From Micromonospora sp. HM5-17 (lineage in GTDB: Bacteria > Actinomycetota > Actinomycetes > Mycobacteriales > Micromonosporaceae), in assembly GCF_003762835.1 (NCBI RefSeq), contig NZ_RJWA01000004.1, forward strand, positions 186,001-250,000: 64,000 bases of DNA, written 5' to 3'. The translations under genes and the position numbers were made by a program. The notes under the pieces were generated by a model, which had not been told where the DNA came from, searched no databases, and worked only from the letters and a program-made list of their open reading frames with translations. This document shows positions 32,857 through 61,680 of the stretch, piece by piece (position 1 is the stretch's first letter; each line of letters opens with the position of its first letter).

Positions 32857-32905
32857 CTCGTCTCCCTGGTACGTCCCGTCAACTGTCGACCCGGTCTGGC
32901 GCGGT

Positions 32906-37476: not shown

Positions 37477-38324
37477 CACGGCGCCCGCCCGGTCAACGCC
37501 AGGCGGATCCGGCGGACCGCGTTGCGCCGGCGCAGCCGCCAGCCCTGGTACTCCCGCAGGTCGAGGGGGGCGGCCTGGACCACCCGGGCGGAGTGGCGCA
37601 TCTGTTCGGTCCATTCGGCGAGGGTGGTCACCCCGGTACGCCGAGCCGACAGGGGCCGGCGGGCCATGAAGTCGGCATCGGTCCGGTAGATCGTGTGCGG
37701 GCTGCGCGGGTCGTCCATGTGGTCCTCGGGGAGGAAGGGGTGGTACCAACCGTTCACCCAGCCGAGCCGGGCGGTTCGCAGGCACCAGGCGGTGAAGGTC
37801 TCGCCGTCGCGCAGCGGCCCGGCCTGGTCCAGCGTCGCGCGCTTGAGCAGGTAGCCGCTGCCCTGCACCCAGTGGTTGCGCAGCAGGCGGTGCCCGCCGG
37901 GGTAGTCGGCCAGCTTCTTCGCGACCAGGTCGGGCTCGACGTCCTCCGGCGGGAAACGCCAGGTGCCGATCACCCCGAACTCGGCGACGTCCTGGTGCGC
38001 CCGCCGCAGCGTGTCGATCCAGGCCGGGTCGGGGAGGCAGTCGTCGTCCACCTTGCTCAGGTACGTCCCGGTCGACTCCCGCCAGAGCCAGTTCGTCGGC
38101 TCGGTCAGCCCGGCGTTGACCGGGCTGTGGTGGAAGCGGTGCACCCGCGGGTGGTGGCGGAACTCCTCGACCGCGTCGCGCGTCGGCCGGTCGGTGCCGT
38201 TGTGCCACAGCCAGACCCGGGCATCGGGGGGACAGGTCGACAACAGGTGGGGCAGCGAGCGCCGGACGTACTCCGGCCGGTCGTAGGTGATCATGAGGAT
38301 GTCGATCCCGCCGTCGCCGGTCAT
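37473..38324 (-). CDS. GT-A glycosyltransferase-like protein
   Basis: This 283-residue soluble protein has a nucleotide-sugar fold: IDILMITYDRPEYVRRSL, VWLWHNGTDRPTR, and an acidic triple at YLSKVDDDCLPDPAW in the DxD position. Further on, TAWCLRTARLGWVNGWYHPF and EDHMDDPRSPHT are unusual for standard GT2. A role in making the polysaccharide of module 1 is inferred from its place. GAGGAGG precedes the ATG; that site is the tail of the 25-codon mini-frame ahead of it. The stop is coupled to the next glycosyltransferase by GTGA. Confidence 0.82.
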   Translation of the reverse strand: MTGDGGIDILMITYDRPEYVRRSLPHLLSTCPPDARVWLWHNGTDRPTRDAVEEFRHHPRVHRFHHSPVNAGLTEPTNWLWRESTGTYLSKVDDDCLPDPAWIDTLRRAHQDVAEFGVIGTWRFPPEDVEPDLVAKKLADYPGGHRLLRNHWVQGSGYLLKRATLDQAGPLRDGETFTAWCLRTARLGWVNGWYHPFLPEDHMDDPRSPHTIYRTDADFMARRPLSARRTGVTTLAEWTEQMRHSARVVQAAPLDLREYQGWRLRRRNAVRRIRLALTGRAPW

Positions 38325-38398
38325 GCCGCCTCCTCGCTGCGCTCGTCGTCCCGACCGAGACGGCGGTGTTGGCGGATGACCTCGCTGTCCGCGGTCAT
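38321..38398 (-). CDS. Mini-ORF (25 aa) bridging the Wzy-like and glycosyltransferase genes
   Basis: The frame starts with ATGA overlapping the wzy-like stop, has AGGAGA 5 nt upstream, and its stop overlaps the next gene's ATG as ATGA. The predicted peptide starts MTADSEVI and ends DERSEEAA. The last codons GAG GAG GCG GCA form the downstream gene's Shine-Dalgarno. It shares both ends with the mini-frame at 61600. It may be a translational-coupling linker, with or without a functional peptide. No homologous protein is known to me. Confidence 0.45.
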   Translation of the reverse strand: MTADSEVIRQHRRLGRDDERSEEAA

Positions 38399-39804
38399 GG
38401 CGTCTCCTCGCCCCGTGCGGTCCTGGCTTCCCGGTTCCTCGCCCGCGCCGCCCGGCCCGCCTCGATCTGGTTGATCCGCTCCGCCCGGGTCAGCCGCCAC
38501 AGGGCGCCGGTCAACCCGAGCATCAGGTGCACGGTGATGAAGAACGTCGTGAAGTACATCGAGTCGAAGGTGAAGCTGGAGACGGCGGCGACCGCGATCG
38601 CGACCGCCAACACCGCCGCGAGGTCGCGGTCCCGTTCCGACCGGGCGAAGCGGCGGACCCGGCCGGCCACCACCACCCCCGACATGAAGAAGACGACGAG
38701 CCCGGCCACCCCGACGATGCCGGTCTGGACCAGGGTGGTCAGCCACTGGTTGTCCAGCAGCTGGTACAGCTCGGGGAGGAAGGTGCCGATGCCCCGGCCG
38801 AGCCAGGGCCGTTCCCGGATGAACGGCGTGACGTAGTCGTAGTCCTCCACCCGGGCCTGCACGCTGGGGTCGCTCTCCCCGGCCATGATCAGCGACTTCA
38901 GTGTTGCCAGCAGGCCGGGCCGGAGGACCTGGATGACCGCGGCCAGGAAGCAGCCGACCACCAGGACGTTGAAGGTGGTCCGCAGCGGCCAGACCAGGAT
39001 GAAGAGCACGATGGCGGCGGCGAGCGCGAGGACGCCGGTCCGGGAGAGTGAGATCGGGATGACCGCCGCCTGGAGCATCGCCAGCGCCCCGTAGATCTGC
39101 CGGTCCCGCCGCCTGTCGGCGAAGCGCGCGAAGTGGATCGCGACCACCAGGCCTATCACCATCAGCACGCTGAACTCGATGTAGTGTCCGGCGGTGCCGG
39201 CGACCCGGACCAGCCCGTCGCCGCCCCGCTCGCGGAACCCGACGACGTCCCGGTGGAAGGTCAGGACCGGCGGCAGCTTCATGTACGTCGTCGGGTCGAT
39301 CCGGGTGACGAACTGGGTCAGCGCGACGAGCGCCATGAAGGTGCAGCCCCAGCAGAGCCAGCGCAGGATCGTGTCGATCCGGTCCCGGGTCAGGACCCCG
39401 TCCGCGGCGGCGAACAGGATGCCGGCACCGGCCAGCGCCTGGAGCAGGGTCCGCTCGGCGCCGTTGGCCTCCAGCACCGGCATGCCCCGAGCCTGCCCGG
39501 CGATGTAGGAGAGCAGGAGGGTGGCCAGGTAGATCGCCATGGCCCAGCGCATCGGCTGCTGTCCCCGGGTGACCAGGGTGGGGTGCAGGCGGCTCAGCGC
39601 CCACCAGACCAGCAGCCCGAACCCCACCATGATGCCGGGCCTGCCGAGGTCGCTCAGCGGAGGGAAGACCAGCCGGAACGGGAGCAGGTAGGCGAGCAGG
39701 ACGGCCGCGATGACCGCGGCCGTCGCATCCGGAAAGTGGCGTACGGCGGGGGTGATCCCGTCGTACACCGTGTCGGACCGTCGGGCGGAAAGGTAGGTCG
39801 GCAC
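38395..39804 (-). CDS. O-antigen ligase/polymerase (Wzy-like) membrane protein
   Basis: This 469-residue integral membrane protein has about 11-12 hydrophobic segments. It should polymerize or ligate lipid-linked sugar repeats at the outer face of the membrane. A large periplasmic loop of about 80 residues follows the middle helices with RVAGTAGHYIEFSVLMV and, further on, the family-like ERPWLGRGIGTFLPELYQ preceding NQWLTTLVQTG. The basic C-terminal tail (RAARARNREART) is cytoplasmic. GTG start. The upstream chain-length gene is separated by a 41-codon frame, and the 25-codon mini-frame starts on its stop. Confidence 0.88.
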   Translation of the reverse strand: MPTYLSARRSDTVYDGITPAVRHFPDATAAVIAAVLLAYLLPFRLVFPPLSDLGRPGIMVGFGLLVWWALSRLHPTLVTRGQQPMRWAMAIYLATLLLSYIAGQARGMPVLEANGAERTLLQALAGAGILFAAADGVLTRDRIDTILRWLCWGCTFMALVALTQFVTRIDPTTYMKLPPVLTFHRDVVGFRERGGDGLVRVAGTAGHYIEFSVLMVIGLVVAIHFARFADRRRDRQIYGALAMLQAAVIPISLSRTGVLALAAAIVLFILVWPLRTTFNVLVVGCFLAAVIQVLRPGLLATLKSLIMAGESDPSVQARVEDYDYVTPFIRERPWLGRGIGTFLPELYQLLDNQWLTTLVQTGIVGVAGLVVFFMSGVVVAGRVRRFARSERDRDLAAVLAVAIAVAAVSSFTFDSMYFTTFFITVHLMLGLTGALWRLTRAERINQIEAGRAARARNREARTARGEETP

Positions 39805-39828
39805 GTCGCTCGTCTCGTCCGTGCGCCG

Positions 39829-39954
39829 TCAGCCGGCGCGGCTGCGGGATTCGGCGATCATGGGGGTCCGCTCCACCGCGCCGTACGCTCCGGCGGAGCG
39901 CACGGTCGGACACGTCGCGTACGCGCCGTGCGGTGGAGGTTGCGACCGGTTCAT
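39829..39954 (-). CDS. Mini-ORF (41 aa) overlapping the Wzz-like gene stop
   Basis: An ATG overlaps the wzz-like stop as ATGA, and the frame runs 41 codons, ending 24 nt before the wzy-like start. The peptide begins MNRSQPPPHGAYAT and is Arg/Pro/Ser-rich with one Cys. A ribosome site is weak (GGACGA, 9 nt away). It fits the bridging pattern but does not reach the next start, so it is the least convincing of the set. Confidence 0.3.
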   Translation of the reverse strand: MNRSQPPPHGAYATCPTVRSAGAYGAVERTPMIAESRSRAG

Positions 39955-41081
39955 GGGGTGACGTCGTCCGCGGGGTTCCGGACCGTGGCCAGCAGGATCG
40001 TGTCGTCGGGCTGCGGGGCGGGGCGGCCCTCGGTGGCGGTCGTGCCCCGCTCGGTGCCGGCGTACCGGGTGCCCCGCTCCTCGGCGGCGTGCGCGCCACG
40101 CCCGTTGGCCGGGCGACCGTTCGTGGTGTGCCCGGCGACGCGGTCGTGCGGTGCCTCGCCGGCCCGGTCGTCGAGGTGACCGGTGTGCTCGTCGGCCGGC
40201 CCGGGGTCGTCGCCCGAGCGGGCGCCGCCGCGGTGGTCCCGGGGTCGGGAGGCGATCCGGGCGGCCACGGCCCGGGGGACCGGCTGCGTGGCGTCCCCCC
40301 GGCCGGCCGGCGTCGCGGCGGACCGGGTGGCGGGGGCCGGCGTGACGGCCGGCCGGGAGGGCGGGGACGGGGCGCCGACGGCCGTCTCCGGGCGGGCCGC
40401 CCCGATGGTCGCCTGCCCGGCGCTCCAGGTCATCGGGGCACGAAGGTCGCGACGCCTGAGCCGGGCCGTGGCGCGGCGGCGCAGCACCGCGTCGTAGCCG
40501 ACGGCGGCGACCGCGGCCAGCAGCAGGCCGATCGCCACGATCACGACCTGTGCCCGGAGTACGTTGGAGCGGGACTGGACGATGTTCAGCCCCGGGTCGA
40601 GCACCTGGGTGGTGATCTGCTCGCCCGGGTTCGGCCGGTACTCGGCCTGCTGCCCGGCGACCTCGTCGTGGATCAGCTGGGTCACCGCCTCCACGGTCGT
40701 CCGTGCGCTCGCCTCGGTGTCGGCGGTGACGGCGACGGTCAGGATCGAACTGCGTGGCACCAGACCCACCTCGTAGTCCGGATCGCCGCCGGCCGCCGCG
40801 ACCTTCATCCGGGCGTCGTGCGCGGAGACCGAGATCTGTACCGCCTGCGCCATCGCGTTCTCGCCGATCCGCAGCCACGGGTTGCCCGGCCGGGGTGTGG
40901 TGTTGGGGGCCGGCGGCGCCGTCGCGGTGGTGGGCGGGACGAGCAGGATGGCGGCCCCGGTCTTGTACTCCGGCTGGATCGCCAGACCGAACGCGAAGGC
41001 GGCGCCGAGTGTCCCGACCACGATGGGGGCCGAGACGTACCACCGCCGAAACATGAGTTTCAGCAGGTCGAGAAGGTCCAT
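39951..41081 (-). CDS. Wzz/chain-length-determinant-like membrane protein with long acidic/Pro tail
   Basis: This 376-residue polysaccharide copolymerase-like protein controls chain length of the exported glycan. The N-terminal helix (about 14-36) and a second helix at about 175-197 (IGLLLAAVAAVGYDAVL) bracket a periplasmic domain that includes the Pro-rich NTTPRPGNPWLRIGE and the later EYRPNPGEQITTQVLDPG. From about residue 205 the tail is a disordered Pro/Arg/Asp/Ala sequence, not a tyrosine-kinase domain, and no BY-kinase gene is in the window. ATG with GAAGGGGC upstream. The next gene's frame overlaps its stop. Confidence 0.85.
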   Translation of the reverse strand: MDLLDLLKLMFRRWYVSAPIVVGTLGAAFAFGLAIQPEYKTGAAILLVPPTTATAPPAPNTTPRPGNPWLRIGENAMAQAVQISVSAHDARMKVAAAGGDPDYEVGLVPRSSILTVAVTADTEASARTTVEAVTQLIHDEVAGQQAEYRPNPGEQITTQVLDPGLNIVQSRSNVLRAQVVIVAIGLLLAAVAAVGYDAVLRRRATARLRRRDLRAPMTWSAGQATIGAARPETAVGAPSPPSRPAVTPAPATRSAATPAGRGDATQPVPRAVAARIASRPRDHRGGARSGDDPGPADEHTGHLDDRAGEAPHDRVAGHTTNGRPANGRGAHAAEERGTRYAGTERGTTATEGRPAPQPDDTILLATVRNPADDVTP

Positions 41082-41158
41082 CGGGCGGCCCCTTCGGATG
41101 CGGGCGAGTGCTGGTGTCGTACGGGGATCGGCAGTGGTTCCTCGGTGGACGGGGCGCG

Positions 41159-42451: not shown

Positions 42452-42951
42452 CTCTAACCCCCATCCGCGCAGCTCGGACGACGTTTTCGATGGAAAGGTC
42501 CCGGCGTGGCGGGAAATCGCCGTGACCCTTGTGGAACGCGTTGCACCGGCGCGGGTGCCACCGGCCCATGTCCTACCCAGACACTGCTCTACCGGTCCGT
42601 TGCCGGCAAGGACCGGGGAATGGTGAAACTGTCGCATTACTTACCGTGGTCACGTCCGATCGGACGATTGTTCGTTCACTCATTCATCCGCGTGTCGGCG
42701 GGCCGGACGGCTTTACCTCGCCGGTGCGGTCGACGTGTCGACGAAAATGGCGTCGGGTGCGCACGGGTTGCTCGAATTTCGTCCGCTTTCGCGTTTTGGT
42801 GCGGCGCTCTTCTGTCGATCGTGCCCATGGCCGACCCTGTGCCGACGAGGGCCGGTGGTCGACTCCGTGACCGGTGGCGGCGATCCGTGCGCGCCAGACC
42901 CGCCTCGCGCGGACGCCGCCGGCGCGGCGGCCACGGGGAGAGGAGCGCACG
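42452..42951. promoter_or_regulatory. 500-nt divergent promoter region with a 14-bp palindrome
   Basis: It separates the minus-strand GT4 gene from the plus-strand sugar-dehydrogenase gene. It is AT-richer than its surroundings, especially 42620-42700 and 42770-42810. CGTCCGATCGGACG at 42653-42666 is a perfect palindrome, followed by ATTGTTCGTTCACTCATTC, and may be a regulator site. No gene is convincing here; open frames across it are continuations of high-GC shadows. Confidence 0.45.
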
Positions 42952-45789
42952 GTGCGGTTGCGGCGTGGCCTGGGGCTGGGGCTGGCGGTGGCGATGCTCG
43001 GGAGTGTCCTGGTTCCGCCGGACGGGGTGCCGCCGGCGGCGGCGGTGACCCTGCCCGTCGGCTTCCAGGAGCAGATCGTCTTCACCGGGCTGAACCAGCC
43101 GACCAACCTCGAGTTCGCCCCGGACGGGCGGATCTTCGTGGCCGAGAAGGGCGGCCGGATCTTGGTCTTCTCGAGTCTCGCCGACCCGACGCCGACGGTC
43201 GTCGCCGACCTCGGCGTCAACGTCCACAACCAGTGGGACCGGGGCCTGCTCGGGCTCGCCCTGCCGCCGAACTTCCCGACCGACCCCTGGCTGTACGTCC
43301 TCTACACGTACGACGCCCCGCCCGGCCGGACCGCGCCGGTGTGGAACGACGTCTGCCCCGACGCCAACAACGGACGCTGCCTGGTCACCGGCCGACTCTC
43401 CCGGCTCCGGATCAGCGGCGACGTGATGACCGGCGGCGAGCAGGTGCTGATCCACGACTGGTGCCAGCAGTACCCGAGCCACTCCGTCGGCGACCTGCAC
43501 TTCGGCGCCGACGGCATGCTGTACGTCAGCGCCGGCGACGGCGCCAGCTTCAGCACCGTCGACTACGGCCAGTTGGGTAGCCCGCCGAACCCCTGCGCCG
43601 ACCCGCCCGGCGGGGTGATGACCCCACCACGGGCCGAGGGCGGTGCGCTGCGCTCCCAGGACGTCCGGAGCGACGGAGACCCGACCGGCCTGGACGGTGC
43701 GATCCTGCGGCTCGATCCGGCGACCGGAGCGGCCGCCCCGGACAACCCACTGGCCGACTCCGCCGACCCCAACACACGCCGCATCGTCGGGTACGGCACC
43801 CGCAACCCGTACCGGTTCACCATTCGGCCGGGGACCAACGAGGTCTGGCTCGGCGACGTCGGCTGGAACACCTGGGAGGAGATCGACCGGATCGTCGACC
43901 CGACCGCCACGGTCACCAACTTCGGCTGGCCGTGCTACGAGGGGGCCGGCCGGATGGGCAGCTACGACAGTGCCAACCTGCGCCTCTGCGAGACGCTCTA
44001 CACCGGAGACGGGCAGACGGCACCGTACTACGCCTACCACCACAGCGCGGCGGTGGTGCCGGGGGAGAACTGTGGCGCGGGCGGCGACGCCGTCTCCGGG
44101 CTGGCCTTCTACCCGGGCAGCGGCGGGAGCTACCCGGCGGCGTACGCGGGAGCGCTCTTCTTCGCCGACCACTCGCGCGGCTGCATCTGGGCGATGCGGC
44201 CGAGCACCCCGGGTGGGCTGCCGAACCCGGCCCACCTGGAGGCGTTCGGTCAGGCCGCCGCCAGCCCGGTCGACCTGGCGATCGGGCCGGGCGGCGAGCT
44301 CTACTACGCCGACCTGAGCGGTGGCACGATCCGGCGGATCCGCTACTTCCCCGGCAACCAGCCGCCGACCGCGGTGATCAGCGCGAGCCCCACCAGCGGA
44401 CCGGCGCCGCTCACCGTCGTCTTCGACGGCAGCGGCTCCACCGACCCGGACCCGGCCGACGTCGGCCGGCTCAGCTACCGGTGGGACTTCACCAGTGACG
44501 GGACCGTCGACGCCACCGGACCGACCGCGAGCTTCCGCTACGCGACGCCGGGCCGCCACACCGCGACGCTGACCGTCACCGACACCCTCGGCGTCTCGGC
44601 CACCGCCACCGTCACCATCCAGTCCGGGAACGGCGCCCCCTCGGCCGTCCTGGAGACGCCGGAGCCGGGGACCGACTGGGCGGTGGGGGAGGTCGTCACC
44701 TTCAGCGGGGGCGGCACCGACCCGCAGCAGGGCACGCTGCCGGCCTCGGCGCTGCACTGGTGGCTGCGGATGCGGCACTGCGAGTCGGTCGGCAACTGCC
44801 ACACCCACGACCTGCAGGAGTGGGTCGGGGTGGCCGGCGGCCAGTTCGTGGCACCCGACCACGAGTACCCGTCCTATCTGGAGTTGGAGCTGACCGTCAC
44901 CGACGCCCAGGGGCTGACCGACACCGTGGTCCGCCGGCTCGATCCGCGTACCGTCGACCTCACCTTCCTCAGCGATCCGCCGGGGCTACGGCTCAGCGTC
45001 GGCGCCGTCACCGGGGAGACCCCGTTCACCCGTACGGTGATCGTCGGCTCGACCACCACCGTCAGCGCGCCGAGCCCGCAGACCCTCGGCGGGCGGGCGT
45101 ACGCCTTCGAGGGGTGGTCGGACGGGGGCGCGGCGACGCACGTGATCACCGCCGGCGCGACCGCCACCAGCTACGCCGCGACGTACGCCGAGGTGCCCGG
45201 GTGCGGCTCGGTGCCCGGGTACACCTGCGTCACCGAGACCGGTCGACCGTGGCCGACCGTCGACGACACGGTGCTGCCGCTGGACGGCGACGACCGGGTG
45301 ACCACGGTGGAGCTCCCGTTCCCGATCCGGCTCTTTGGGCAGGCGTACGAGACCGCCTGGGTCTCCGGGAACGGCTTCGTCTCGTTCGTCGACCCCGGCG
45401 GGTCCCAGCCGATCAACGGCCCGCTGCCCGAGCCGGGTCCGCCGAACGCCGCGGTCTATCCGTTCTGGGACGACCTCTACGTCCGGGCGGACTCCAGCGT
45501 CCGGACCGGGGTCGTCGGCACGGCGCCGTACCGCCGGTTCGTCGTCGAGTGGCGCAACAGCGGCCTGTACGGCTCCAGCTCCGCGCGGATCAGCTTCGCC
45601 GTCGAGTTCGCCGAGAGCGGCGACATCGTGTTCAGCTACGCGGACCTCAACAGCACCGGGCGGGAACGGGGGGACTCGGCCACGGTGGGGTTGGAGGACG
45701 CCACCGGCACGCTGGGGCTGCCGTACTCGGTCAACCAGCCGACGCTGGTCAACGGTACGTCGATCGTCTACCGACCCGATTCGCCCTGA
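42952..45789 (+). CDS. Large secreted PQQ-type sugar dehydrogenase with PKD and nidogen-like regions (copy 1)
   Basis: This 945-residue exported protein has a signal peptide (about 1-33), a glucose/sorbosone dehydrogenase-type beta-propeller (about 37-465), a PKD domain (about 470-560), a beta-rich region (about 563-660), an InlB/BIg-type repeat ending GWSDGGAATHVI (about 673-745) and a nidogen-like end (WVSGNGFVSFVDPGG, PFWDDLYV). Propeller signatures: GRIFVAEKGG, RGLLGLALPPNF, HSVGDLHFGADGMLYVSAGD, GYGTRNPYRFTI, and NFGWPCYEG. PQQ or other cofactor binding is not shown. It may oxidize or bind a cell-surface sugar. GTG with GGGAGAGGAG upstream. Confidence 0.85.
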   Translation: MRLRRGLGLGLAVAMLGSVLVPPDGVPPAAAVTLPVGFQEQIVFTGLNQPTNLEFAPDGRIFVAEKGGRILVFSSLADPTPTVVADLGVNVHNQWDRGLLGLALPPNFPTDPWLYVLYTYDAPPGRTAPVWNDVCPDANNGRCLVTGRLSRLRISGDVMTGGEQVLIHDWCQQYPSHSVGDLHFGADGMLYVSAGDGASFSTVDYGQLGSPPNPCADPPGGVMTPPRAEGGALRSQDVRSDGDPTGLDGAILRLDPATGAAAPDNPLADSADPNTRRIVGYGTRNPYRFTIRPGTNEVWLGDVGWNTWEEIDRIVDPTATVTNFGWPCYEGAGRMGSYDSANLRLCETLYTGDGQTAPYYAYHHSAAVVPGENCGAGGDAVSGLAFYPGSGGSYPAAYAGALFFADHSRGCIWAMRPSTPGGLPNPAHLEAFGQAAASPVDLAIGPGGELYYADLSGGTIRRIRYFPGNQPPTAVISASPTSGPAPLTVVFDGSGSTDPDPADVGRLSYRWDFTSDGTVDATGPTASFRYATPGRHTATLTVTDTLGVSATATVTIQSGNGAPSAVLETPEPGTDWAVGEVVTFSGGGTDPQQGTLPASALHWWLRMRHCESVGNCHTHDLQEWVGVAGGQFVAPDHEYPSYLELELTVTDAQGLTDTVVRRLDPRTVDLTFLSDPPGLRLSVGAVTGETPFTRTVIVGSTTTVSAPSPQTLGGRAYAFEGWSDGGAATHVITAGATATSYAATYAEVPGCGSVPGYTCVTETGRPWPTVDDTVLPLDGDDRVTTVELPFPIRLFGQAYETAWVSGNGFVSFVDPGGSQPINGPLPEPGPPNAAVYPFWDDLYVRADSSVRTGVVGTAPYRRFVVEWRNSGLYGSSSARISFAVEFAESGDIVFSYADLNSTGRERGDSATVGLEDATGTLGLPYSVNQPTLVNGTSIVYRPDSP

Positions 45790-46153
45790 TCATCCCGTCC
45801 GGCCCGACTGCCCCCGGAACCGGTGCGCCTGACCCCGGCACACACCGACCGGCTCGCCCCCGGCCTGATCACCCCGGCGTCCACCGATACGCTCCGTATA
45901 CAGGCGATCGTCCGGCAGGGCGCGGGACACCGGTCCCGCCCCGGCGGGCCGATCGTCTCCCCGGGGTCACCCCGGCGGGCGTCACGGCCGCAACAAAGGG
46001 ACTGACCAGGGAAGCTGACCGGTCGTTAAGTCGGTCTGGTCGGCGTCGGCTCCGGTCGGTCTCGTGACAGCCCGCGTCGTCACCGACGGTGATCCTGAGC
46101 TCCGGAGGAAGGTGTCGGTCGGGCCGGCACCCCACCGCCGGAGGGAGGCCGTC
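45790..46153. other. 364-nt spacer between the two sugar-dehydrogenase-like genes
   Basis: It contains no supportable gene. GCGGGAC-ACCG-GTCCCGC (45922-45939) is a perfect 7-bp hairpin with CCGGGGTCACCCCGG (45961-45975) after it; together they may terminate copy 1. AT-rich GATACGCTCCGTATAC sequence near 45890 and the GGAGGGAGG ribosome site of copy 2 complete the region, so copy 2 could have its own promoter. Confidence 0.5.
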
Positions 46154-49015
46154 ATGTCCCGAGCGTTGCGGCGTATCTGGGCGCTGACCCTGGCGCTCGT
46201 CCTCGGCGTACCGGTGCTGACGGGTGCGCCGCCCGCGCCATCCCCGCCAGCCGGTGCCGTCCCCGCGGGCTTCACCCAGCAGGTCGTCTACACCGGACTG
46301 ACCCGGCCCACCACGCTGGCGTTCGCGTCGGACGGGCGGGTCTTCGTCGCCGAGAAGAGCGGGATCATCAAGGTCTTCGACAGCCTCTCCGACGACACCC
46401 CGACGGTCTTCGCCGACCTGCGTCCCCAGGTGTACGACTTCACCGACCTCGGCCTCATCGGCCTCGCCCTCGCCCCGACCTTCCCCGCCGACCCGTACGT
46501 CTACGTCAGCTACAGCTACGACGGGGTGGTCGGGGGGAGCGCGCCGACGTACCACGACGCCTGCCCGGTCATCGGCGCCTGCCCCTCCAGCGCCCGGGTC
46601 TCCCGGCTGCGGGCCGACGGAAACGTGATGACCGGCGACGAGCAGGTGCTGCTGCACGACTGGTGTACGCAGATCGACAGCCACTCGATCGGCGCTCTCG
46701 CCTTCGGCCCGGACGGCGCCCTCTACGTCTCGGGCGGCGACGGGGCGTCCGGCACCTTCACCGACTACGGCCAGTCCGGCGACCCGACCAACCCGTGTGG
46801 GGACCCGCCGGCCCCGGTCGGGGGACCGATGACCCCGCCGACCGCCGAGGGCGGGGCCCTTCGCGCGCAGGACATCCGCACGGCGGACGATCCGACCGGG
46901 CTGGGCGGCACCCTGATCCGGATCTCCCCGACCACCGGCGTCGCGCTGCCGGACAACCCGCTCGCCGCCAGCCCCGACCCGAACACCCGGCGAATCGTCG
47001 CGTACGGGCTGCGCAACCCGTTCCGCTGGACGTTCCGTCCGGGGACCAGCGAGGTGTGGGTCGGCGACGTGGGGTGGCGGACCTGGGAGGAGATCAACCG
47101 GATCACCGACCCGGCGGTCGGCCCGGTCCGGAACTACGGCTGGCCGTGCTACGAGGGAACCGCCGTGCAGGGCGGCTACAACGCGGCGAACCTGGCCCTC
47201 TGCGAGAGCCTCTACGCCGCGCCCACGGTGGTTCCGCCGTACTACACGTACCAGCACAGTCAGGTCGTCGCCGCGGGGGACGGCTGCCGCACCGGCGGGT
47301 CGTCCCCGGCCGGGATGGCGTTCTACCCGGCCAGCGGCGGCGGCTACCCGGCGACGTACGCGGGAGCGCTCTTCTTCGCCGACTACTCGCGCGGCTGCGT
47401 CTGGGCGATGCGGACCGGCGCGAACGGGCTGCCGGACCCGGCCCGCATCGTGCCGTTCGCCGCCGCCCCCGGCGTGGTGGATCTGCAGGTCGGGCCGGAG
47501 CACGACCTCTACTACGTCGACCTCACCGGCGGCACGGTGCGCCGGTTCCACCACAACTCCGGCAACCAGGTGCCGCACGCCGTCGCCACCGCGACGCCCA
47601 CCAGCGGACAGGCCCCGCTGACCGTCACGTTCGACGCGGTCGGCTCGACCGATCCGGACCCGGGGGACATCCTGGAGTACCAGTGGGACTTCACCGGAGA
47701 CGGCACCGTCGACGCCACGGGGCGTACGGTGAGCCACACGTACGCCGCGGTCGGGACGTACGCGGCGCGGCTGCGGGTGGTGGACATCGGCGGGCTCAGC
47801 GACACCGTGACGGTGCTGATCCGGGTCGGGACCGCCGCCCCGGTGCCGGTGATCGACACCCCGACGGCCGAGCTGCGCTGGTCGGTCGGCCAGTCGGTGC
47901 ACTTCCGCGGTCACGCCGACGACCCGCAGCAGGGTGCCCTGCCGGCGTCGGCGCTCACCTGGGACCTGGTCCTGCGGCACTGCAGTACCCCGGACAACTG
48001 CCACAGCCACCCGGTACGGGAGTGGACCGGGGTCACCGAGGGCGACTTCCGCGCACCCGACCACGAGTACCCGTCCTATCTGGAGCTGACGCTGACCGCC
48101 CGGGGCGGCGGCGGGCTGACCGGCAGCACCACCCTGCGACTGGACCCGCAGACCGTGCGGATCTCGCTGGCCACCCGGCCGGCCGGGCTTCGACTCCACC
48201 TGAACGGCCGCAGCCTCACCACCCCGAACAACGCGCAGGTCATCGTCGGCTCCACCAACACGCTCAGCGCACCCGGACCGCAGACCCTCGGCCCGGCGAC
48301 GTACACCTTCGTCGGTTGGTCGGACGGGGGTGCGGCGACCCACGTGGTCACGGCGCCCGCGACCGCAGCGACCTGGACCGCGACGTACGACAGCATCGCC
48401 GGTAGCTGCGGGGACAGCTACGGCTACACCTGTACGACCCAGCCGGGCCGACCCTACGTCCCGGCCGACGACGACGTGCTGCCGCTGGCCGGGGACAACG
48501 TGACCCGGGAGATCCGGTTGCCGTTCGCGGTGCCGTACTACGGCCAGGTCCACAGCCGGGCCTGGGTGGACAGCAACGGCGTGCTGTCCTTCGCCGACCC
48601 GGGTGGCTCGTGGCCGACGAACCGGCCGTTGCCGCAGGCGGCGGCGCCGAACGCCGCGCTCTACCCGTTCTGGGACGACCTGGAGGTGCGCGCCGACTCC
48701 AGTGTCCGAACCGCGACCATCGGCGGCACGCCCGACCGGCGGTTCGTGGTGGAGTGGCGCGACCTGGGGCTGAAGGGCGCCGGGTCGGCCCGGGTCAGCT
48801 TCCAGGTGGTGATCTCGGAGTGGGGTGAGATCGTCTTCAACTACGCCGGGTTGCACGCCGGCCGGGAACTGGGCAACTCGGCGACGATCGGCATCGAGAA
48901 CCCGACCGGCACCGACGCCGTGGCGTACTCCTACAACCAGCTCGTCCTGGCCGACAGCCGGGCGATCGTCTTCACCCCGCCGGCCGCGACCGTCGGGGCG
49001 GCCCCGGCCGGCTAG
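46154..49015 (+). CDS. Large secreted PQQ-type sugar dehydrogenase with PKD and nidogen-like regions (copy 2)
   Basis: This 953-residue tandem paralogue of the preceding gene has the same domain order. Matching signatures include GRVFVAEKSGIIKVF, LIGLALAPTFPADPYVYVSY, HSIGALAFGPDGALYVSGGD, YGLRNPFRWTF, NYGWPCYEG, the PKD segment TPTSGQAPLTVTFDAVGSTD, GWSDGGAATHVV and a nidogen-like end (WVDSNGVLSFADPGG). Cysteines in the propeller (DWCTQIDSHS, GDGCRTGG, SRGCVW) parallel copy 1, so disulfides are likely. The mature protein is presumably exported and perhaps surface-associated. Purine-rich GGAGGGAGG is 6 nt from the ATG. Substrate unknown. Confidence 0.85.
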   Translation: MSRALRRIWALTLALVLGVPVLTGAPPAPSPPAGAVPAGFTQQVVYTGLTRPTTLAFASDGRVFVAEKSGIIKVFDSLSDDTPTVFADLRPQVYDFTDLGLIGLALAPTFPADPYVYVSYSYDGVVGGSAPTYHDACPVIGACPSSARVSRLRADGNVMTGDEQVLLHDWCTQIDSHSIGALAFGPDGALYVSGGDGASGTFTDYGQSGDPTNPCGDPPAPVGGPMTPPTAEGGALRAQDIRTADDPTGLGGTLIRISPTTGVALPDNPLAASPDPNTRRIVAYGLRNPFRWTFRPGTSEVWVGDVGWRTWEEINRITDPAVGPVRNYGWPCYEGTAVQGGYNAANLALCESLYAAPTVVPPYYTYQHSQVVAAGDGCRTGGSSPAGMAFYPASGGGYPATYAGALFFADYSRGCVWAMRTGANGLPDPARIVPFAAAPGVVDLQVGPEHDLYYVDLTGGTVRRFHHNSGNQVPHAVATATPTSGQAPLTVTFDAVGSTDPDPGDILEYQWDFTGDGTVDATGRTVSHTYAAVGTYAARLRVVDIGGLSDTVTVLIRVGTAAPVPVIDTPTAELRWSVGQSVHFRGHADDPQQGALPASALTWDLVLRHCSTPDNCHSHPVREWTGVTEGDFRAPDHEYPSYLELTLTARGGGGLTGSTTLRLDPQTVRISLATRPAGLRLHLNGRSLTTPNNAQVIVGSTNTLSAPGPQTLGPATYTFVGWSDGGAATHVVTAPATAATWTATYDSIAGSCGDSYGYTCTTQPGRPYVPADDDVLPLAGDNVTREIRLPFAVPYYGQVHSRAWVDSNGVLSFADPGGSWPTNRPLPQAAAPNAALYPFWDDLEVRADSSVRTATIGGTPDRRFVVEWRDLGLKGAGSARVSFQVVISEWGEIVFNYAGLHAGRELGNSATIGIENPTGTDAVAYSYNQLVLADSRAIVFTPPAATVGAAPAG

Positions 49016-53863: not shown

Positions 53864-53896
53864 CCCGCCGTCGTACCGGCGCTCGCCGCCGGGTGG

Positions 53897-55486
53897 TCAG
53901 CCGGTCGCGGCGACCCGTCGGCGGGGAAACCGGGCCCGCACCAGCCGGCGCAGCCGGGCGTCGGTGGCCCAGAGCAGCCCCCCGGCGACCAGCCCGGCCG
54001 AGCCGCCGAGGAGGAGCAGGTCGGGCACCGGACCAGGGTCCAGGGGAAGCCGGTCGAGCGGCCAGGGGACCAGCGCGGCGACGAGCGCGGCCAGCACCGC
54101 CGGCACCGTCGGGGCGAGGAAGGCCGTGATCGACGCAGCGGCCGTGCGGCGGACGGTGACCCAGACCGAGAGCCCGGTCACCACGACCTGCATTCCGATC
54201 CCGGCCAGTGCCACCGCGGTCGCCTCGGCCACGTCGCTGCGCCCGGTGAACAGGGCACCGACCGCGGCCAGGGTCGCAACCCCGAGCACGCCCCGGGTCC
54301 AGAGGATCGCGGCGAGCCGGCCCGGCTGCCCCATCGCCTGCAACGCCGGCCCGAGCAGGACGCCGTACACGTTGACCGCGCCGAAGAGGCAGAGCAACCG
54401 CAGCGGCGTCTCGGTGCCGGCCCACTGCGGACCGAGGAGCGTGACCAGCGGATGCGCGGTCGCCGCCAGTACGCCGAGCACCGGGAGCCCGGCCAGCGCG
54501 CCGAGGTGCTGGAGCTGGTTGAGGTGCCTGGCCAGCGCGGCGCGGTCGTGCTGGAGTCGGGAGAGCGAGGGGAGCGCCACCTGCTGTAGCGACCGGACCG
54601 TGACGTCGACCAGCATGTCCGGCAGCCGGGCCGCCAGCCGGTAGATGCCGGTGGCGACGGGCCCGAAGAACAGCCCGGTGAAGATGACGTCCGCCTTCGA
54701 GCTGAGCATCAGCCCGAGCCCGGCGTTCGCCGAGTGGGCGGAGAAGACCAGCAGGTCGCGGCTCCCGGACAGCCGCGGTCGGCGGCTCGGCCGCCACGGG
54801 CAGACGGCCCAGAGCACCACCAGCCCGACCGCCGCGTTCACCAGTTGCTGCGCGACCAGGGCCCAGATACCCGCGCCGAACAGGGCCAACACCACCCCGA
54901 CCGCGCCGCTGAGCAGCGAGGCGAGCAGGGTGCGGATCGCCACCGCGCGGAAGCGCAGCTCCCGACGGAGCACCGCCTCCGGCACGATCGACAGCCCCTG
55001 GAGCAACACCAGCGGCGAGAGGGCCACGCAGACCACGGTCAGCTCGGGTGCCCGGTTGACCCACGCCCAGAGCGGGCTGGCGGCGGCGGTGAGCAGGCCG
55101 ATGCCGAGCCCGGCCAGTACCAGCACGACGAACGCCCCGTCCAGGTGCTCCGGGGTGAGCCGGTCCCGCTGCACGATCGCGGAGACCAGCCCCTGCTGGA
55201 TCAGGGTCTGCGCCACCGTGATGAAGACCGTCGCCATCGCGACCAGGCCGAACTCGCTCGGCCCGAGGAGCCGGGCGAGCAGGAAGGTGACCAGGATCGA
55301 CGACCCGATCCGGCCGCCGGTGAGGACGTACGACCAGCCGATCGCCGCGCGGAGCCGTCCCCCCGACGGCCGCTCCGGCCCGCCCGACGGCCCGGCCGAG
55401 GCGGATGGGGGCGGCGCGGGTGCCACCACCGCGTCGGTGGCGACCGCCGACGCGGACCCGTCCGGGGCGAGGCGCCGCTCGGTCAT
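53897..55486 (-). CDS. Wzx-like polysaccharide flippase (MOP superfamily)
   Basis: This 529-residue integral membrane protein has about 12-14 hydrophobic segments. It moves lipid-linked repeat units across the membrane. The N-terminal part has GWSYVLTGGRIGSSILVTFL and ARLLGPSEFGLVAMATVFIT, typical of MviN/RfbX flippases. The basic tail (FPRRRVAA) is cytoplasmic. The ATG is overlapped by ATGA from a 23-codon mini-frame. It is the last gene of the minus-strand half of module 2. Confidence 0.9.
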   Translation of the reverse strand: MTERRLAPDGSASAVATDAVVAPAPPPSASAGPSGGPERPSGGRLRAAIGWSYVLTGGRIGSSILVTFLLARLLGPSEFGLVAMATVFITVAQTLIQQGLVSAIVQRDRLTPEHLDGAFVVLVLAGLGIGLLTAAASPLWAWVNRAPELTVVCVALSPLVLLQGLSIVPEAVLRRELRFRAVAIRTLLASLLSGAVGVVLALFGAGIWALVAQQLVNAAVGLVVLWAVCPWRPSRRPRLSGSRDLLVFSAHSANAGLGLMLSSKADVIFTGLFFGPVATGIYRLAARLPDMLVDVTVRSLQQVALPSLSRLQHDRAALARHLNQLQHLGALAGLPVLGVLAATAHPLVTLLGPQWAGTETPLRLLCLFGAVNVYGVLLGPALQAMGQPGRLAAILWTRGVLGVATLAAVGALFTGRSDVAEATAVALAGIGMQVVVTGLSVWVTVRRTAAASITAFLAPTVPAVLAALVAALVPWPLDRLPLDPGPVPDLLLLGGSAGLVAGGLLWATDARLRRLVRARFPRRRVAATG

Positions 55487-55554
55487 GACCCCGCCGCCAC
55501 GTCGCCGGACCCACCGCCGAACCGGCCCCGGCCCGGGACGCGTCGGTGACTCAC
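55483..55554 (-). CDS. Mini-ORF (23 aa) bridging the GT2 and flippase genes
   Basis: GTG overlaps the GT2 stop as GTGA, AGGGG lies 6 nt upstream, and the stop overlaps the flippase ATG as ATGA. The peptide starts MSHRRVPGRGRF and ends GDVAAGS, Gly/Arg-rich. It has no resemblance to the other mini-frames but the same double-overlap junction. The flippase itself has only a GGCGGGG as a ribosome site. Confidence 0.35.
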   Translation of the reverse strand: MSHRRVPGRGRFGGGSGDVAAGS

Positions 55555-56462: not shown

Positions 56463-56474
56463 CGTGGCCTCCAC

Positions 56475-57653: not shown

Positions 57654-58690
57654 CGCGGCCCCGCCGCCGTCCAGCGCAGGTCGGCGTCGAGCCGGCCGCG
57701 CGCGATCAGCGCCCGGATCCGGCGCAGCCGCTGGTGCCGCTCGCCGCGGAACGCCTCGATCGTCAGCCCGTGCCGCTGGTAGGCCTCGACCAGCTCCTCG
57801 ATCCCCTTCCGGACCGTCCACCGGGGCCGGAAACCCGGCACCTCCGTCGCCACGCGGTCGCAGCTCACCCGGTAGTTGCGGGCGTCCGCGGAGGCGCCGC
57901 CGGCGATTGTCACGGTCGAGCCCGGCACCACCTCGGCGACCAGCTCCGCCACGTCCCGGATCAGGTAGTTCTCGCTGGTCACCCCGATGTTGTACGCCCG
58001 GCCGTGCACCACCTCGCGGGGCGCCTCCAGCAGCGCGAGGAACGCCGCGGCGATGTCCTCGACGTGCACCAGCGGCCGCCAGGCCGAGCCGTCGGAGAGC
58101 AGCCGGATCTCGCCGGTGAGCAGCGCGTACGCGGTCAGGTCGTTGACCACCAGGTCACCGCGGAGCCGGGGCGAGAAGCCGTACGCGGTCGCGTTGCGCA
58201 GGAAGACCGGGGAGAAGTCGTCGTCGGCCAGGGCCGCCAGGTCCCGCTCGGCGCGGATCTTCGACTCGCCGTACGGGGTGAGCGGGTGGAAGTCGGCGTT
58301 CTCGTCGAGCGGCCGGTCGTCCGGCCCCGCGCCGTAGAGGCTGCACGACGAGGAGAAGAGGAAGCGGGTCACCCCGGCGGCCTTCGCCGCCCGGGCCAGC
58401 CGGAGCGTGGCGGCGTGGTTGATCGCGTACGTCAGCTCCGGGTTGAGGTTGCCGACCGGGTCGTTGCAGAGCGCCGCCAGATGGCAGACCGCGTCGAAGC
58501 CGGCGCAGTGCTCGGGCGTGACGTCCCGCAGGTCCATCCGGAGCGTCGGGATCTCGGCCGGTGGCGGACCGAGCAGGCAGTCGCGGTAGTAGTCGGTGTC
58601 CAAACCGGTTACCTCGTGCCCAGCGGCGCGAAGCAGGGGGGTGAGTACGCCGCCGAGGTAACCATGGTGACCGGTCACGAGAACGCGCAC
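57650..58690 (-). CDS. NAD(P)-dependent nucleotide-sugar epimerase/dehydratase
   Basis: This 346-residue extended SDR protein has VLVTGHHGYLGGVLTPLL as the nucleotide loop (GxxGxxG), FLFSSSCSLYG and the active-site YGESKIRAE with Tyr and Lys. LSDGSAWRPLVHVEDIAAAF matches the sugar-nucleotide epimerase branch. It could generate the 4-keto or epimerized sugar needed by the methyltransferases. It starts the minus half of module 2. No upstream purine run stands out apart from GGGAGCCTTGCCGTGCGC. No complete CDP-hexose 4,6-dehydratase is seen in this window, so this protein may have that role or the sugar is made elsewhere. Confidence 0.9.
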   Translation of the reverse strand: MRVLVTGHHGYLGGVLTPLLRAAGHEVTGLDTDYYRDCLLGPPPAEIPTLRMDLRDVTPEHCAGFDAVCHLAALCNDPVGNLNPELTYAINHAATLRLARAAKAAGVTRFLFSSSCSLYGAGPDDRPLDENADFHPLTPYGESKIRAERDLAALADDDFSPVFLRNATAYGFSPRLRGDLVVNDLTAYALLTGEIRLLSDGSAWRPLVHVEDIAAAFLALLEAPREVVHGRAYNIGVTSENYLIRDVAELVAEVVPGSTVTIAGGASADARNYRVSCDRVATEVPGFRPRWTVRKGIEELVEAYQRHGLTIEAFRGERHQRLRRIRALIARGRLDADLRWTAAGPR

Positions 58691-58870
58691 GGCAAGGCTC
58701 CCGTCGTCGCGCGGGTGAGAAGGCGAGTTTATGGGCGGCCCATCGACGCGGCGGACTATTGTCGGACTTTTTACTGAACCACCCCCGCCCCGCCGCGCCC
58801 GTGGCTAGCGTGGCGCGCAGGCGGGCGGGTGCCGCGCCCGTTTATTCCGATCAAATCGGGGTGGGTGGGC
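58691..58870. promoter_or_regulatory. Divergent promoter region of polysaccharide module 2
   Basis: This is a 180-nt gap between the epimerase and the second methyltransferase genes, AT-richer at 58725-58780 with TTGTCGGACTTTTTACTGAAC. Promoters of both half-modules must lie here, but no consensus pair is certain. Confidence 0.4.
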
Positions 58871-60100
58871 ATGACCGTTGCCAAATGTCGACTGTGCGCC
58901 GCGATATTGACCGAAACCTTTGTCGATCTCGGCATGTCACCGCTCTGCGAGAGCTATCTCCCCGCCGAGCGGCTCGATTCGCCCGAGACGTTCTATCCCC
59001 TGCACGTCCGGATCTGTTCCCAGTGCCTGCTCGTCCAACTTCCGGCGTATGTCTCCGGTGAGGAGATATTCTCCGACTACGCCTATTTCTCCTCCTATTC
59101 GGACTCGTGGGTCGCGCACGCCCGCCGGTACGCCGACACGATGACCGAGACGCTCGGCCTGGGGTCCGACTCGCTGGTGACCGAGGTGGCCAGCAACGAC
59201 GGCTACCTGTTGCAACACTTCGTGGCCCGGGGCGTCCCGGTGCTTGGCGTCGAGCCGGCCGCCAACATCGCCGAGGTGGCCCGGAGCCGGGGTATCCGGA
59301 CCGAGGTGCGGTTCCTCGGTGCCGAGACCGGGGCCGAGCTGGCCGACCGGTACGGCCAGGCCGACCTGGTGGTCGCCAACAACGTCTACGCCCACGTACC
59401 CGACCTGATCGGCTTCACCGCCGGACTCGCCGCGCTGGTCAAGCCGACCGGCCTGGTCACCTGCGAGTTCCCGCACCTGCTTCGGCTGATCGAACGTCGT
59501 CAGTTCGACACGATCTACCACGAGCACTACCAGTACCTGACGTTGCGGACGGCCCAGCGGGCGCTCGGCACCGCCGGCCTGATCGTGGTCGACGTGGACG
59601 AACTCTCCACGCACGGCGGCTCGCTGCGGGTGCACGCCCGTCCGGCCGCCGCGGCGGGCGAGCCCTCCGGCAACGTCAAGTCGGTGCTGGACGCCGAGGC
59701 CGAGGCCGGGCTGCACACCGTCGCCGGGCACCTCGGATTCGCCGACGCGGTCCTGGACATCAAGCGGGCGCTGCTGGAGTTCCTGCTGACCGCCCGGGCC
59801 CAGGGGCGGCGGGTGGTGGGCTACGGCGCCCCCGGCAAGGGCAACACGCTGCTCAACCACTGCGCGATCCGCTCCGACCTGCTGGAGTACACGGTCGACC
59901 GGAGCCCGCACAAGCAGGGCCTCTTCCTGCCCGGGACCCACATCCCGATCCACGCGCCGGAGCGGATCGCCGCGGACCGTCCCGACTACGTCCTGGTCCT
60001 GCCCTGGAACCTGCGTACCGAGATCAGCGCCCAGTTGGCCTACGTCCGCGACTGGGGAGGTCGGCTGGTCTTCCCGATTCCTGCCCTGGAGGTGGTCTGA
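58871..60100 (+). CDS. Sugar C-methyltransferase-type SAM enzyme (copy 2)
   Basis: This 409-residue protein is a paralogue in layout of copy 1. The zinc-type N-terminus has CRLCAAILTETFVDLG and CSQCLLVQLPAY. The SAM domain has VTEVASNDGYLLQHF (SNDG variant of motif I, as in TylCIII-type enzymes), VVANNVYAHVPDL and YHEHYQYLTL. The C-terminal region has GYGAPGKGNTLLNHC and VDRSPHKQGLFLPG. It likely methylates a deoxysugar carbon. The ATG at 58871 follows a G-rich stretch. A 15-codon mini-frame begins on its stop. Confidence 0.88.
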   Translation: MTVAKCRLCAAILTETFVDLGMSPLCESYLPAERLDSPETFYPLHVRICSQCLLVQLPAYVSGEEIFSDYAYFSSYSDSWVAHARRYADTMTETLGLGSDSLVTEVASNDGYLLQHFVARGVPVLGVEPAANIAEVARSRGIRTEVRFLGAETGAELADRYGQADLVVANNVYAHVPDLIGFTAGLAALVKPTGLVTCEFPHLLRLIERRQFDTIYHEHYQYLTLRTAQRALGTAGLIVVDVDELSTHGGSLRVHARPAAAAGEPSGNVKSVLDAEAEAGLHTVAGHLGFADAVLDIKRALLEFLLTARAQGRRVVGYGAPGKGNTLLNHCAIRSDLLEYTVDRSPHKQGLFLPGTHIPIHAPERIAADRPDYVLVLPWNLRTEISAQLAYVRDWGGRLVFPIPALEVV

Positions 60101-60147
60101 TGCGTGACGTCCGGCCGACCCACCACCCTCGGGCGGTGTCCCGATGA
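60100..60147 (+). CDS. Mini-ORF (15 aa) bridging the methyltransferase and cytidylyltransferase genes
   Basis: ATG shares one base with the methyltransferase stop (TGATG), GGAGG is 7 nt upstream inside that gene, and its stop overlaps the next gene's ATG as ATGA. The peptide is MRDVRPTHHPRAVSR. The next gene has no good ribosome site of its own, so its translation likely depends on this frame. It is the clearest functional candidate of the mini-frame set. Confidence 0.5.
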   Translation: MRDVRPTHHPRAVSR

Positions 60148-60971
60148 AGGTCGTGCTCTTCTGCGGCGGTCTCGGCATGCGGATGCGGGAGGACGCCGCC
60201 TCGGCGCCGAAGCCGATGGCGATGATCGGCGACCGGCCGCTGCTCTGGCACGTCATGCGGTACTACGCGCACTTCGGGCACACCGACTTCGTCCTCTGCC
60301 TCGGCTACGGTGCCGTCGCGGTCAAGGACTACTTCCTCCGGTACGACGAGACCCTCTCCAACGACTTCAGCCTCGCCATGGACGGCCGGAACATCCGGCT
60401 CTTCTCCGCCGACATCACCAACTGGAACATCACCTTCATCGACACCGGGCTCGGCGCCACCATCGGCGAGCGGCTGATGCGGGTCCGCCGGTACGTCGAG
60501 GACGAGGAGATGTTCCTGGCCAACTACGCCGATACCCTCACCGACGCCCCGCTGCCCGAGATGATCGACCGGTTCCGGCGTACCGACGCGGTGGCGAGCA
60601 TGCTCGCCGTGCCGGTGCAGTCGACCCACCACGTCGTCGACATCACCGCCGGGGACCAGGTGACCCGGGTACGCCCCATCCGCGAGCTGATGCAGTGGGA
60701 GAACGGCGGCTACTTCATCCTCCGACCGGAGATCTTCTCCGTGCTCCGGGAGGGCGAGGACCTGGTGCCGCACGCCTTCGAGCGGCTGCTGCCGCAGCGG
60801 CGGCTGGTCGCCCAGCGCTACACCGGATTCTGGCGAGCCGCCGACACCTTCAAGGACCGGGCCGAGCTGGAGGATCTGTACCACTCCGCGCGCTGCCCCT
60901 GGATGCTCTGGGATCCGAACCGCAACCGGGACCGGGCCCCGGCCACCCTGGAACCGGTCCTCGCCGGATGA
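60144..60971 (+). CDS. Glucose-1-phosphate cytidylyltransferase-like nucleotidyltransferase
   Basis: This 275-residue enzyme should make CDP-glucose or a related NDP-sugar. The GT-A-like signature MKVVLFCGGLGMRMRED and the Lys in SAPKPMAMIGDRPLLWH match RfbF. NWNITFIDTGLGATIGERL also aligns well. The conserved FLANYADTLTDAPL region has the metal-binding Asp. Unlike typical RfbF there is little else to confirm cytidine specificity. Its product may feed the epimerase and methyltransferases. It overlaps the PIG-L gene by ATGA. Confidence 0.85.
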   Translation: MKVVLFCGGLGMRMREDAASAPKPMAMIGDRPLLWHVMRYYAHFGHTDFVLCLGYGAVAVKDYFLRYDETLSNDFSLAMDGRNIRLFSADITNWNITFIDTGLGATIGERLMRVRRYVEDEEMFLANYADTLTDAPLPEMIDRFRRTDAVASMLAVPVQSTHHVVDITAGDQVTRVRPIRELMQWENGGYFILRPEIFSVLREGEDLVPHAFERLLPQRRLVAQRYTGFWRAADTFKDRAELEDLYHSARCPWMLWDPNRNRDRAPATLEPVLAG

Positions 60972-61603
60972 CGCCGCTGCGGCTGGACGCGGTACGCGCG
61001 GTGGTGCTGCTCGGGGCGCACCCGGACGACATCGAGATCGGGGCGGGCGGGCTGCTGCTCACCCTCGCCGAGGTGCCGGGGCTGCGCGTCCACTACGTCC
61101 TTCTGACCGGCTCGCCGCGGCGGCGGGCCGAGGCGCGGGCGGCGGCGGCCGCGTTCCTCCCCGACGCCCGGCTCAGCTTCGACCTGCACGACCTGCCGGA
61201 CGGCCGGGTGCCGGCCCGGTGGGCGGAGGCGAAGCAGATCGTCGAGGCGGCAGCCGCGACCGTCGCCGCCGACCTGGTCCTCGCCCCCGGCCCGGACGAC
61301 GCGCACCAGGACCACCGCACGCTCGGTGCCCTCGTGCCCACGTCGTTTCGGGACGCCACGGTGTTGTACTACGAGATCCCCAAGTGGGACGGGGACCTCG
61401 GACGGCGCAACGTCTATCTGCCGCTGTCCGAGGAGCGGGTGCGTCGCAAGGTCGAGCTGCTGCACGCCTGCTACCCGTCGCAGCAGGGGCGGGACTGGTG
61501 GGACGACGAGGTGTTCCGGGGGCTTGCCCGGCTGCGGGGGATGGAGTGCCGGTCCCGGTACGCCGAGGCGTTCCGGTGCGAGAAGGCGGTGATCGGATTG
61601 TGA
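60968..61603 (+). CDS. PIG-L family deacetylase
   Basis: This 211-residue zinc deacetylase removes N-acetyl groups from GlcNAc-type sugars. Hallmarks are AVVLLGAHPDDIEIGAGGLL (HPDD metal motif) near residue 18, LAPGPDDAHQDHRTLG and LYYEIPKWDGD, with the remaining ligand His in the second of these. The size is typical. ATG overlaps the cytidylyltransferase stop. Its own stop is overlapped by a 26-codon mini-frame that leads to the pyruvyltransferase gene. The substrate may be a lipid-linked or nucleotide sugar of module 2. Confidence 0.92.
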   Translation: MTPLRLDAVRAVVLLGAHPDDIEIGAGGLLLTLAEVPGLRVHYVLLTGSPRRRAEARAAAAAFLPDARLSFDLHDLPDGRVPARWAEAKQIVEAAAATVAADLVLAPGPDDAHQDHRTLGALVPTSFRDATVLYYEIPKWDGDLGRRNVYLPLSEERVRRKVELLHACYPSQQGRDWWDDEVFRGLARLRGMECRSRYAEAFRCEKAVIGL

Positions 61604-61680
61604 CCGAGCGGAGCGAGGTCATCGGCGGGTTCAGCCGGGTCCGCCATGGCGGTGACGAGCGGAGCGAGGAGGCGGCATGA
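61600..61680 (+). CDS. Mini-ORF (26 aa) bridging the PIG-L and pyruvyltransferase genes
   Basis: GTG overlaps the PIG-L stop as GTGA and the stop overlaps the next ATG as ATGA. The peptide starts MTERSEVI and ends DERSEEAA, the same ends as the mini-frame at 38321. Codons GAG GAG GCG GCA TGA supply the next gene's Shine-Dalgarno. The sequence CGAGCGGAGCGAGG occurs twice inside (61604 and 61656 regions). A GAAGG about 14 nt upstream may start it. Confidence 0.45.
   Translation: MTERSEVIGGFSRVRHGGDERSEEAA

Follow-up and report, generated by a model that had tools for sequence, protein, structure and literature searches.

Mini-ORFs at gene junctions of a Micromonospora polysaccharide locus probably include copies of a small mobile coupling repeat

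Why are several junctions between co-directional genes in a polysaccharide locus of Micromonospora sp. HM5-17 bridged by tiny open reading frames (ORFs) that start on one gene's stop codon and run to the next gene's start? The five mini-ORFs in question lie in a 64,000-nucleotide (nt) stretch of contig NZ_RJWA01000004.1 (positions 186,001 to 250,000; hereafter the window). An earlier reading of this DNA, the original prediction, took them for an array of translational-coupling linkers specific to the locus, possibly with peptide products. Our analysis suggests that two of them, E1 and E2, probably belong to a family of small, mobile but non-autonomous repeats that act as stop-start coupling linkers, like the mycobacterial interspersed repetitive units (MIRUs), which reportedly go back to Supply et al. 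(1997). All five predicted frames are present, including the fifth, which stops short of the next gene:

61600..61680, plus strand: repeat copy E1, a 26-amino-acid mini-ORF from GTGA to ATGA with AGGAGG plus ATGA at its 3' end, between the PIG-L and PS_pyruv_trans genes
38321..38398, minus strand: repeat copy E2, a 25-amino-acid mini-ORF from ATGA to ATGA, between the Wzy_C and GT2 genes
55483..55554, minus strand: a 23-amino-acid mini-ORF from GTGA to ATGA, between the GT2 and Polysacc_synt genes
60100..60147, plus strand: a 15-amino-acid mini-ORF starting in TGATG and ending in ATGA, with a private 44-nt insert
39829..39954, minus strand: a mini-ORF starting on ATGA, with its TGA 24 nt ahead of the next GTG

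In shuffles that randomised the interior of each gap, preserved its ends and assigned its length to a random frame, coupling survived in 21-28% of cases, and each frame taken singly is therefore weak evidence. The case for a repeat comes from comparison within the genome and across relatives.

A dispersed repeat in the source genome and its family

E1 and E2 have their ends in common, above all GACGAGCGNAGCGAGGAGGCGGCATGA. The 12-base core GAGCGNAGCGAG is only weakly enriched, being found at one mismatch at 5 places in the window against 4.1 expected; the 6.17-Mb genome has 23 such places, while the reversed pattern, which served as control, has 15. E1 and E2 stand above chance through the complete 27-base 3' module, which ends in DTGA, and not through the core: with at most three mismatches this module matched 17 genome places and its reversed pattern 1. 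A sequence-only model, R1, built from 11 copies of the source genome, matched 14 genome places at E < 1e-4, 3 of them outside the training set. In the window it matched the junctions of E1 (57.8 bits, E 3.7e-17) and E2 (44.8 bits, E 4.1e-13), both of which are training rows; the next match there scored 11 bits. The genome holds about 14-17 copies of the repeat, which align over 66-108 nt.

Going by gene names read from the translations, these copies include tal-pgi, where two units stand in tandem, rpmC-rpsQ, where the mini-ORF has 9 amino acids, and the starts of rnc, leuS, dop and the gene for cytochrome oxidase subunit III. At 12 of the 17 places an open frame of at least 80 codons (open frames were used here, with no gene calls) terminates on the left DTGA. 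Three loci of the source genome (L014, L016 and L031) have frames starting with the repeat's left end, e.g. GTGACCGAGCGGAGCGAG, as if the repeat had turned into an N-terminus.

Of the 300 family genomes, 168 contain the 27-base module at least once with at most two mismatches. The highest copy counts were 107 (G087), 105 (G128), 83 (G118) and 80 (G132), while the reversed control gave 0-1 in each. In a class-wide sample, 17 of 394 genomes had matches, 3 of them within the family; the 14 genomes from outside it held 19 matches together against 19 for the controls, so there is no excess outside the family, except perhaps in one genome (G549, 5 matches). Among named genomes at least 119 stretches carry the motif, and the 80 loci listed come from Catellatospora, Micromonospora, Plantactinospora and Dactylosporangium. 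These named genera suggest that the family is Micromonosporaceae. No report of such repeats in actinomycetes outside mycobacteria, Micromonosporaceae included, was found in titles and abstracts of the open literature, a partial coverage that leaves out most subscription journals. The five module matches in G549 (L261), which belongs to another family of the class, are all on one strand and of one type (GCCGAGCGNAGCGAGG....GGCATGA), perhaps a related repeat.

Frame, turnover and peptide of the unit

An in-frame left DTGA is present in 172 of 203 copies and in 81 of 93 named copies, the right DTGA being part of the search pattern. Both sets demanded frame and hence are no test of it; they give unit lengths of 60-111 nt among the 172 units, mostly 60-110 nt. 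When the left module was instead sought in any frame, 94 copies turned up; the length was divisible by three in 91, and all 91 were open. Tandem spacings (n=30) were 68 (13), 71 (12), 74 (3), 77 (1) and 89 (1) nt, every one of them 2 mod 3, which is what a chain of 4-nt overlaps requires. At the 38321 junction, the five congeners with an ortholog carry chains of 62, 59+29+26+26, 62, 62 and 59 nt, each of which reaches the next start despite the differing length, and G104 is without an ortholog of the downstream gene. Judged by these lengths, the unit keeps the reading frame. In the second of these chains (L242, G058) the four coupled mini-ORFs consist partly of short GTGACCGGGGCGGAGACGTC-like repeats.

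Comparison with relatives also revealed empty and filled sites. The 61600 junction is empty in five of six congeners, with a bare ATGA overlap in G104 and, in G032, G078, G092 and G113, a bare GTGA overlap followed by the gene's own N-terminus, which is longest in G113; G058 holds a diverged copy. At tal-pgi, where the source genome has its two units, one of six congeners has a single diverged unit, another an 8-nt spacer interpretable as a coupled ORF of 3 codons, and the remaining four only a bare overlap. In the set of 105 sites having both flanks, L088 and L130 (mutually empty and filled) and L153 and L052 form clean empty pairs, the other listed partners either adjoining another copy or having blurred ends. 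Copy number at orthologous junctions also varies, between one unit and at least two. The empty sites at 61600 and tal-pgi, together with this tandem variation, indicate that units come and go. The original prediction had named frameshifting indels among relatives as a sign against it: the frame is mostly kept where the repeat is present, but the whole insert is missing in several relatives in which the genes overlap directly, and so the linker is dispensable.

An exact chain test covered 59 orthologous junctions, of which 28 came from a pre-selected set and were coupled by selection of the sample. Nine of the other 31 were coupled and six showed one DTGA only, in three cases next to another copy; in 16 the boundaries were too blurred for a call.

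Synonymous-biased change in the mini-ORFs, which would have spoken for peptide products, was not seen. In the 11 equal-length pairs among 50 orthologous pairs, substitutions at the first, second and third codon positions numbered 33/21/24 in the mini-ORFs; the flanking genes gave 18/12/94 (upstream) and 32/23/103 (downstream). Since the substitutions are spread evenly over codon positions, unlike those of the flanking genes, the peptide of the mini-ORF is, on this comparison, not conserved, and a functional peptide was rejected. As to ribosome binding, among copies with a left open frame of at least 60 codons, at least 4 nt of AGGAGG stand ahead of the mini-ORF start in 92 of 133, against 9% at random places. 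They stand 4-12 nt ahead of the downstream start in 133 of 133, a figure that, like the 3' conservation, is inflated because the loci were fetched by patterns containing part of this site.

Apart from this inflation, several observations weigh against reading E1 and E2 as copies of a mobile coupling linker. Upstream 'genes' were judged by open frame, and some (e.g. L032 and L037) look like the wrong frame. The own-genome copy before nagA (L045) measures 76 nt and is not coupled. In the any-frame test, 2 of the 94 copies are truly out of frame, the third exception (L175) reading as two coupled units. There is no in-frame left DTGA at 55-115 nt in 31 of the 203 copies, and none within 180 nt in 12 of the 93 named copies. 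One reverse frame is also stop-free in 152 of the 172 units, which makes openness weak evidence. Just 11 equal-length pairs carry the peptide test; 24 of the 50 orthologous pairs differ by a multiple of three, the remainder showing whole-unit changes or blurred boundaries; and 16 of the 59 orthologous junctions could not be called.

One alternative is a passive repeat, whose own Shine-Dalgarno site and start would give fresh initiation at the downstream gene, the mini-ORF being a by-product and the frame being kept by copying of the whole unit. The site ahead of the downstream start in all 133 copies (with its inflation), the unconstrained peptide and the open reverse frame would all suit such a repeat. 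Against it, unit lengths vary (60-111 nt), yet 91 of 94 are multiples of three in the any-frame test; small indels between orthologs are also mostly multiples of three; and the 38321 chains vary in length while all remaining coupled. We regard a passive repeat as unlikely.

Proposed action and movement of the unit

Comparison among these genomes shows a unit that is repeated, placed at stop/start overlaps, constrained in frame, present at filled and missing from empty sites, variable in tandem number and apparently free of peptide constraint. Ribosome hand-over through the mini-ORF fits such a unit. The unit typically sits between two DTGA tetranucleotides within 4-nt stop/start overlaps, core operons (tal-pgi, rpmC-rpsQ) included. 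Its ORF begins on the upstream gene's stop and ends where the downstream gene starts, and the 3' module usually brings a Shine-Dalgarno-like GAGGAG to a position shortly ahead of that start. In the proposed mechanism, a ribosome that has finished the upstream gene could initiate again on the mini-ORF and then pass to the next gene, and selection for downstream expression would keep the frame. Insertion would target DTGA, instead of selection filtering copies to DTGA.

The left end of the unit was absent from the search patterns used to fetch copies. It reads DTGAGCGAGC-NNN-GCGAGCGAATCA in 106 units of 72 or 75 nt, its free 3-nt loop spanning a codon border. A CGAGC-N3-GCGAG motif stands near both ends of the unit with a variable loop, which is GNA in 85 of the 172 units. 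GNA loops are known in very stable DNA mini-hairpins, according to the passages of PMC6479982 that cite Hirao 1994 and Yoshizawa 1997. The end motifs could fold as such mini-hairpins. Stem compensation is weak (the observed counts were reached by 36, 66 and 131 of 2000 shuffles, uncorrected for relatedness), and the hairpin is thus a proposal only. Strong structure of the whole element was rejected, as E1 folds no better than shuffles (z -0.03 as DNA and -0.2 as RNA); for E2, z was -2.1 as DNA and -1.0 as RNA.

End hairpins, a fixed short target and the lack of a transposase of their own are features of IS200/IS605 relatives and REP-type elements, and a Y1 (IS200/IS605-type) transposase that recognises its end hairpins might likewise move the unit in the form of single-stranded DNA. 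The same motif close to either end, its loop variable across codon borders, and the fixed tetranucleotide at the insertion site are consistent with such movement. So is the presence of Y1_Tnp (PF01797) in 16 of 30 genomes with at least 10 copies compared with 84 of 300 overall, a hand tally that ignores kinship and general transposon load. On the other side, Y1_Tnp was found neither in the source genome (96% complete) nor in G058, which has 46 copies, and in the genus it occurs in 1 of 7 genomes; the weak stem compensation and the E1 fold also count against it. A Y1 transposase was rejected as a required partner because the source genome has none, a past partner elsewhere being possible, and movement by this route seems doubtful. 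The hairpins of the present unit are candidates, and the missing Y1 gene of the source genome sets it apart from these elements.

The closest likeness is to MIRUs. The parts of the sources that bear on them describe MIRUs as apparently mobile, inserting at start codons with an ORF coupled at -4 nt (a 2025 review, PMC12548453), as 40-100 bp long and present at 41 places in one strain (PMC2734929), and as having units of 77 and 53 bp (PMC4213456, PMC2453075); the senX3-regX3 MIRUs are given as confined to M. leprae and the M. tuberculosis complex (PMC4213456). Short dispersed size, an ORF overlapping the flanking stop and start, tandem copy-number variation and empty and filled sites all recur in the present family, and the MIRU lengths of 77 and 53 bp in these passages are 2 mod 3, like the 68-89 spacings here. 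By analogy, the architecture is that described for mycobacterial MIRUs; the comparison is one of architecture as these passages give it, not of MIRU sequence. Our class-wide motif search gave only control-level matches outside the family. Ribosome delivery by bicistronic or upstream ORFs, as treated in part of PMC12548453, resembles the present case in that a short ORF brings the ribosome to the next start. There the leader is fixed, whereas the present short ORFs are copies of a dispersed repeat and undergo turnover.

We put forward, tentatively and at somewhat less than even weight, that this is a second, independent family of translation-transparent mobile DNA, recognised through a CGAGC-GNA-GCGAG mini-hairpin, entering stop/start overlaps with its own Shine-Dalgarno site and under selection on frame, not on peptide. 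If so, operons would gain and lose units of such a family while coupling persists. In the passages on MIRUs that we cite, the mode of movement is open, as is whether coupling permits survival inside operons. A family that reaches about 100 copies per genome, has clear empty sites and extends into operons for ribosomal proteins and sugar metabolism would allow both questions to be tested in ordinary laboratory actinomycetes. The repeat would also offer a reason for the SERSE- or ERSEE-like strings that start or end some proteins of these genomes, and very short ORFs that annotation places at such junctions may derive from it.

The remaining mini-ORFs and neighbouring features

The stronger form of the original prediction, linkers that arose specifically to couple genes of the polysaccharide operons and may encode functional peptides, could find encouragement in two recognisable copies, out of about 14-17 in 6.17 Mb, and three further mini-ORFs lying within 64 kb. 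The coupling part of this claim held, as the frame is kept and the 38321 chains are coupled in all five congeners. The claim of an array specific to the locus did not, because the same repeat is dispersed in the genome and across the family, which rules out a locus-specific design, and only two of the five mini-ORFs match it. With the substitution spectrum and the absence of the inserts from congeners added, a locus-specific array is largely refuted and very improbable. Chance, by which open frames often span short gaps in GC-rich DNA, is equally improbable as a general account, because, despite the coupled shuffles and the unconserved 55483 and private 60100 frames, it fails for 17 versus 1 copies, for the tandem spacings and for the empty sites.

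The 55483, 60100 and 39829 mini-ORFs were rejected as repeat copies, none being among the 37 matches of model R1 up to E 10. Chance, to which the original prediction allowed some part, is an adequate explanation of the 55483 mini-ORF, which occurs in none of six congeners, stop and start being nearly adjacent in most, and perhaps of the 60100 mini-ORF. At 60100, GGAGG does lie 7 nt ahead of the mini-ORF start, and the gene at 60144 is, by a simple measure, without an AGGAGG-like site, both as predicted. At this junction a 1-nt TGATG overlap is present in five of the six congeners, and in the remaining one a GTG follows the stop immediately, indicating that 44 nt were gained in the source genome. 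The GGAGG that would serve the downstream gene in congeners would now serve the mini-ORF, as the original prediction had spotted. A second repeat family was rejected for this insert, with one other genome place at 3 mismatches.

The 39829 mini-ORF is composite, and a further short feature adjoins E2:

39829..39861, minus strand: a 33-nt short ORF ahead of wzy, whose start lies on the upstream stop (ATGA) in congeners and whose end falls 24 nt short of the wzy GTG; length and place are identical in five of five congeners
39862..39954, minus strand: 93 nt inserted in frame, containing a long imperfect palindrome (CTCCACCGC...GCGGTGGAG) and missing from five of five congeners
38395..38416, minus strand: a possible relic of an earlier unit, where the wzy gene end resembles the repeat's 3' module (model positions 60-81, 11.5 bits)

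The 93-nt insert extends the 33-nt ORF to 126 nt. Its fold gave z values of -2.1 as DNA and -1.8 as RNA, and its 18-mers occur in no fetched locus save one that covers the window itself. The relic candidate has an E of 0.96 in the genome and is not significant alone.

The Pfam matches of the flanking genes (GT2, Wzy_C, Polysacc_synt, methyltransferases, epimerase, PIG-L and PS_pyruv_trans) suggest a polysaccharide locus, in which a Wzz match lies just below its cut-off; 2 of the 14 proteins scanned around the mini-ORFs had no Pfam family. No known RNA family was detected at gathering scores in the 36-63 kb part of the window, and no tRNA in the window as a whole. Three tandem duplications were also observed in the window: two large ORFs at 42874-49015 with direct repeats about 3.2 kb apart (71-76% identity), up to four copies spaced 1.1-1.4 kb at 29227-34015, and, at 9158-11565, a pair of copies at 84-90% separated by 1.5 kb.

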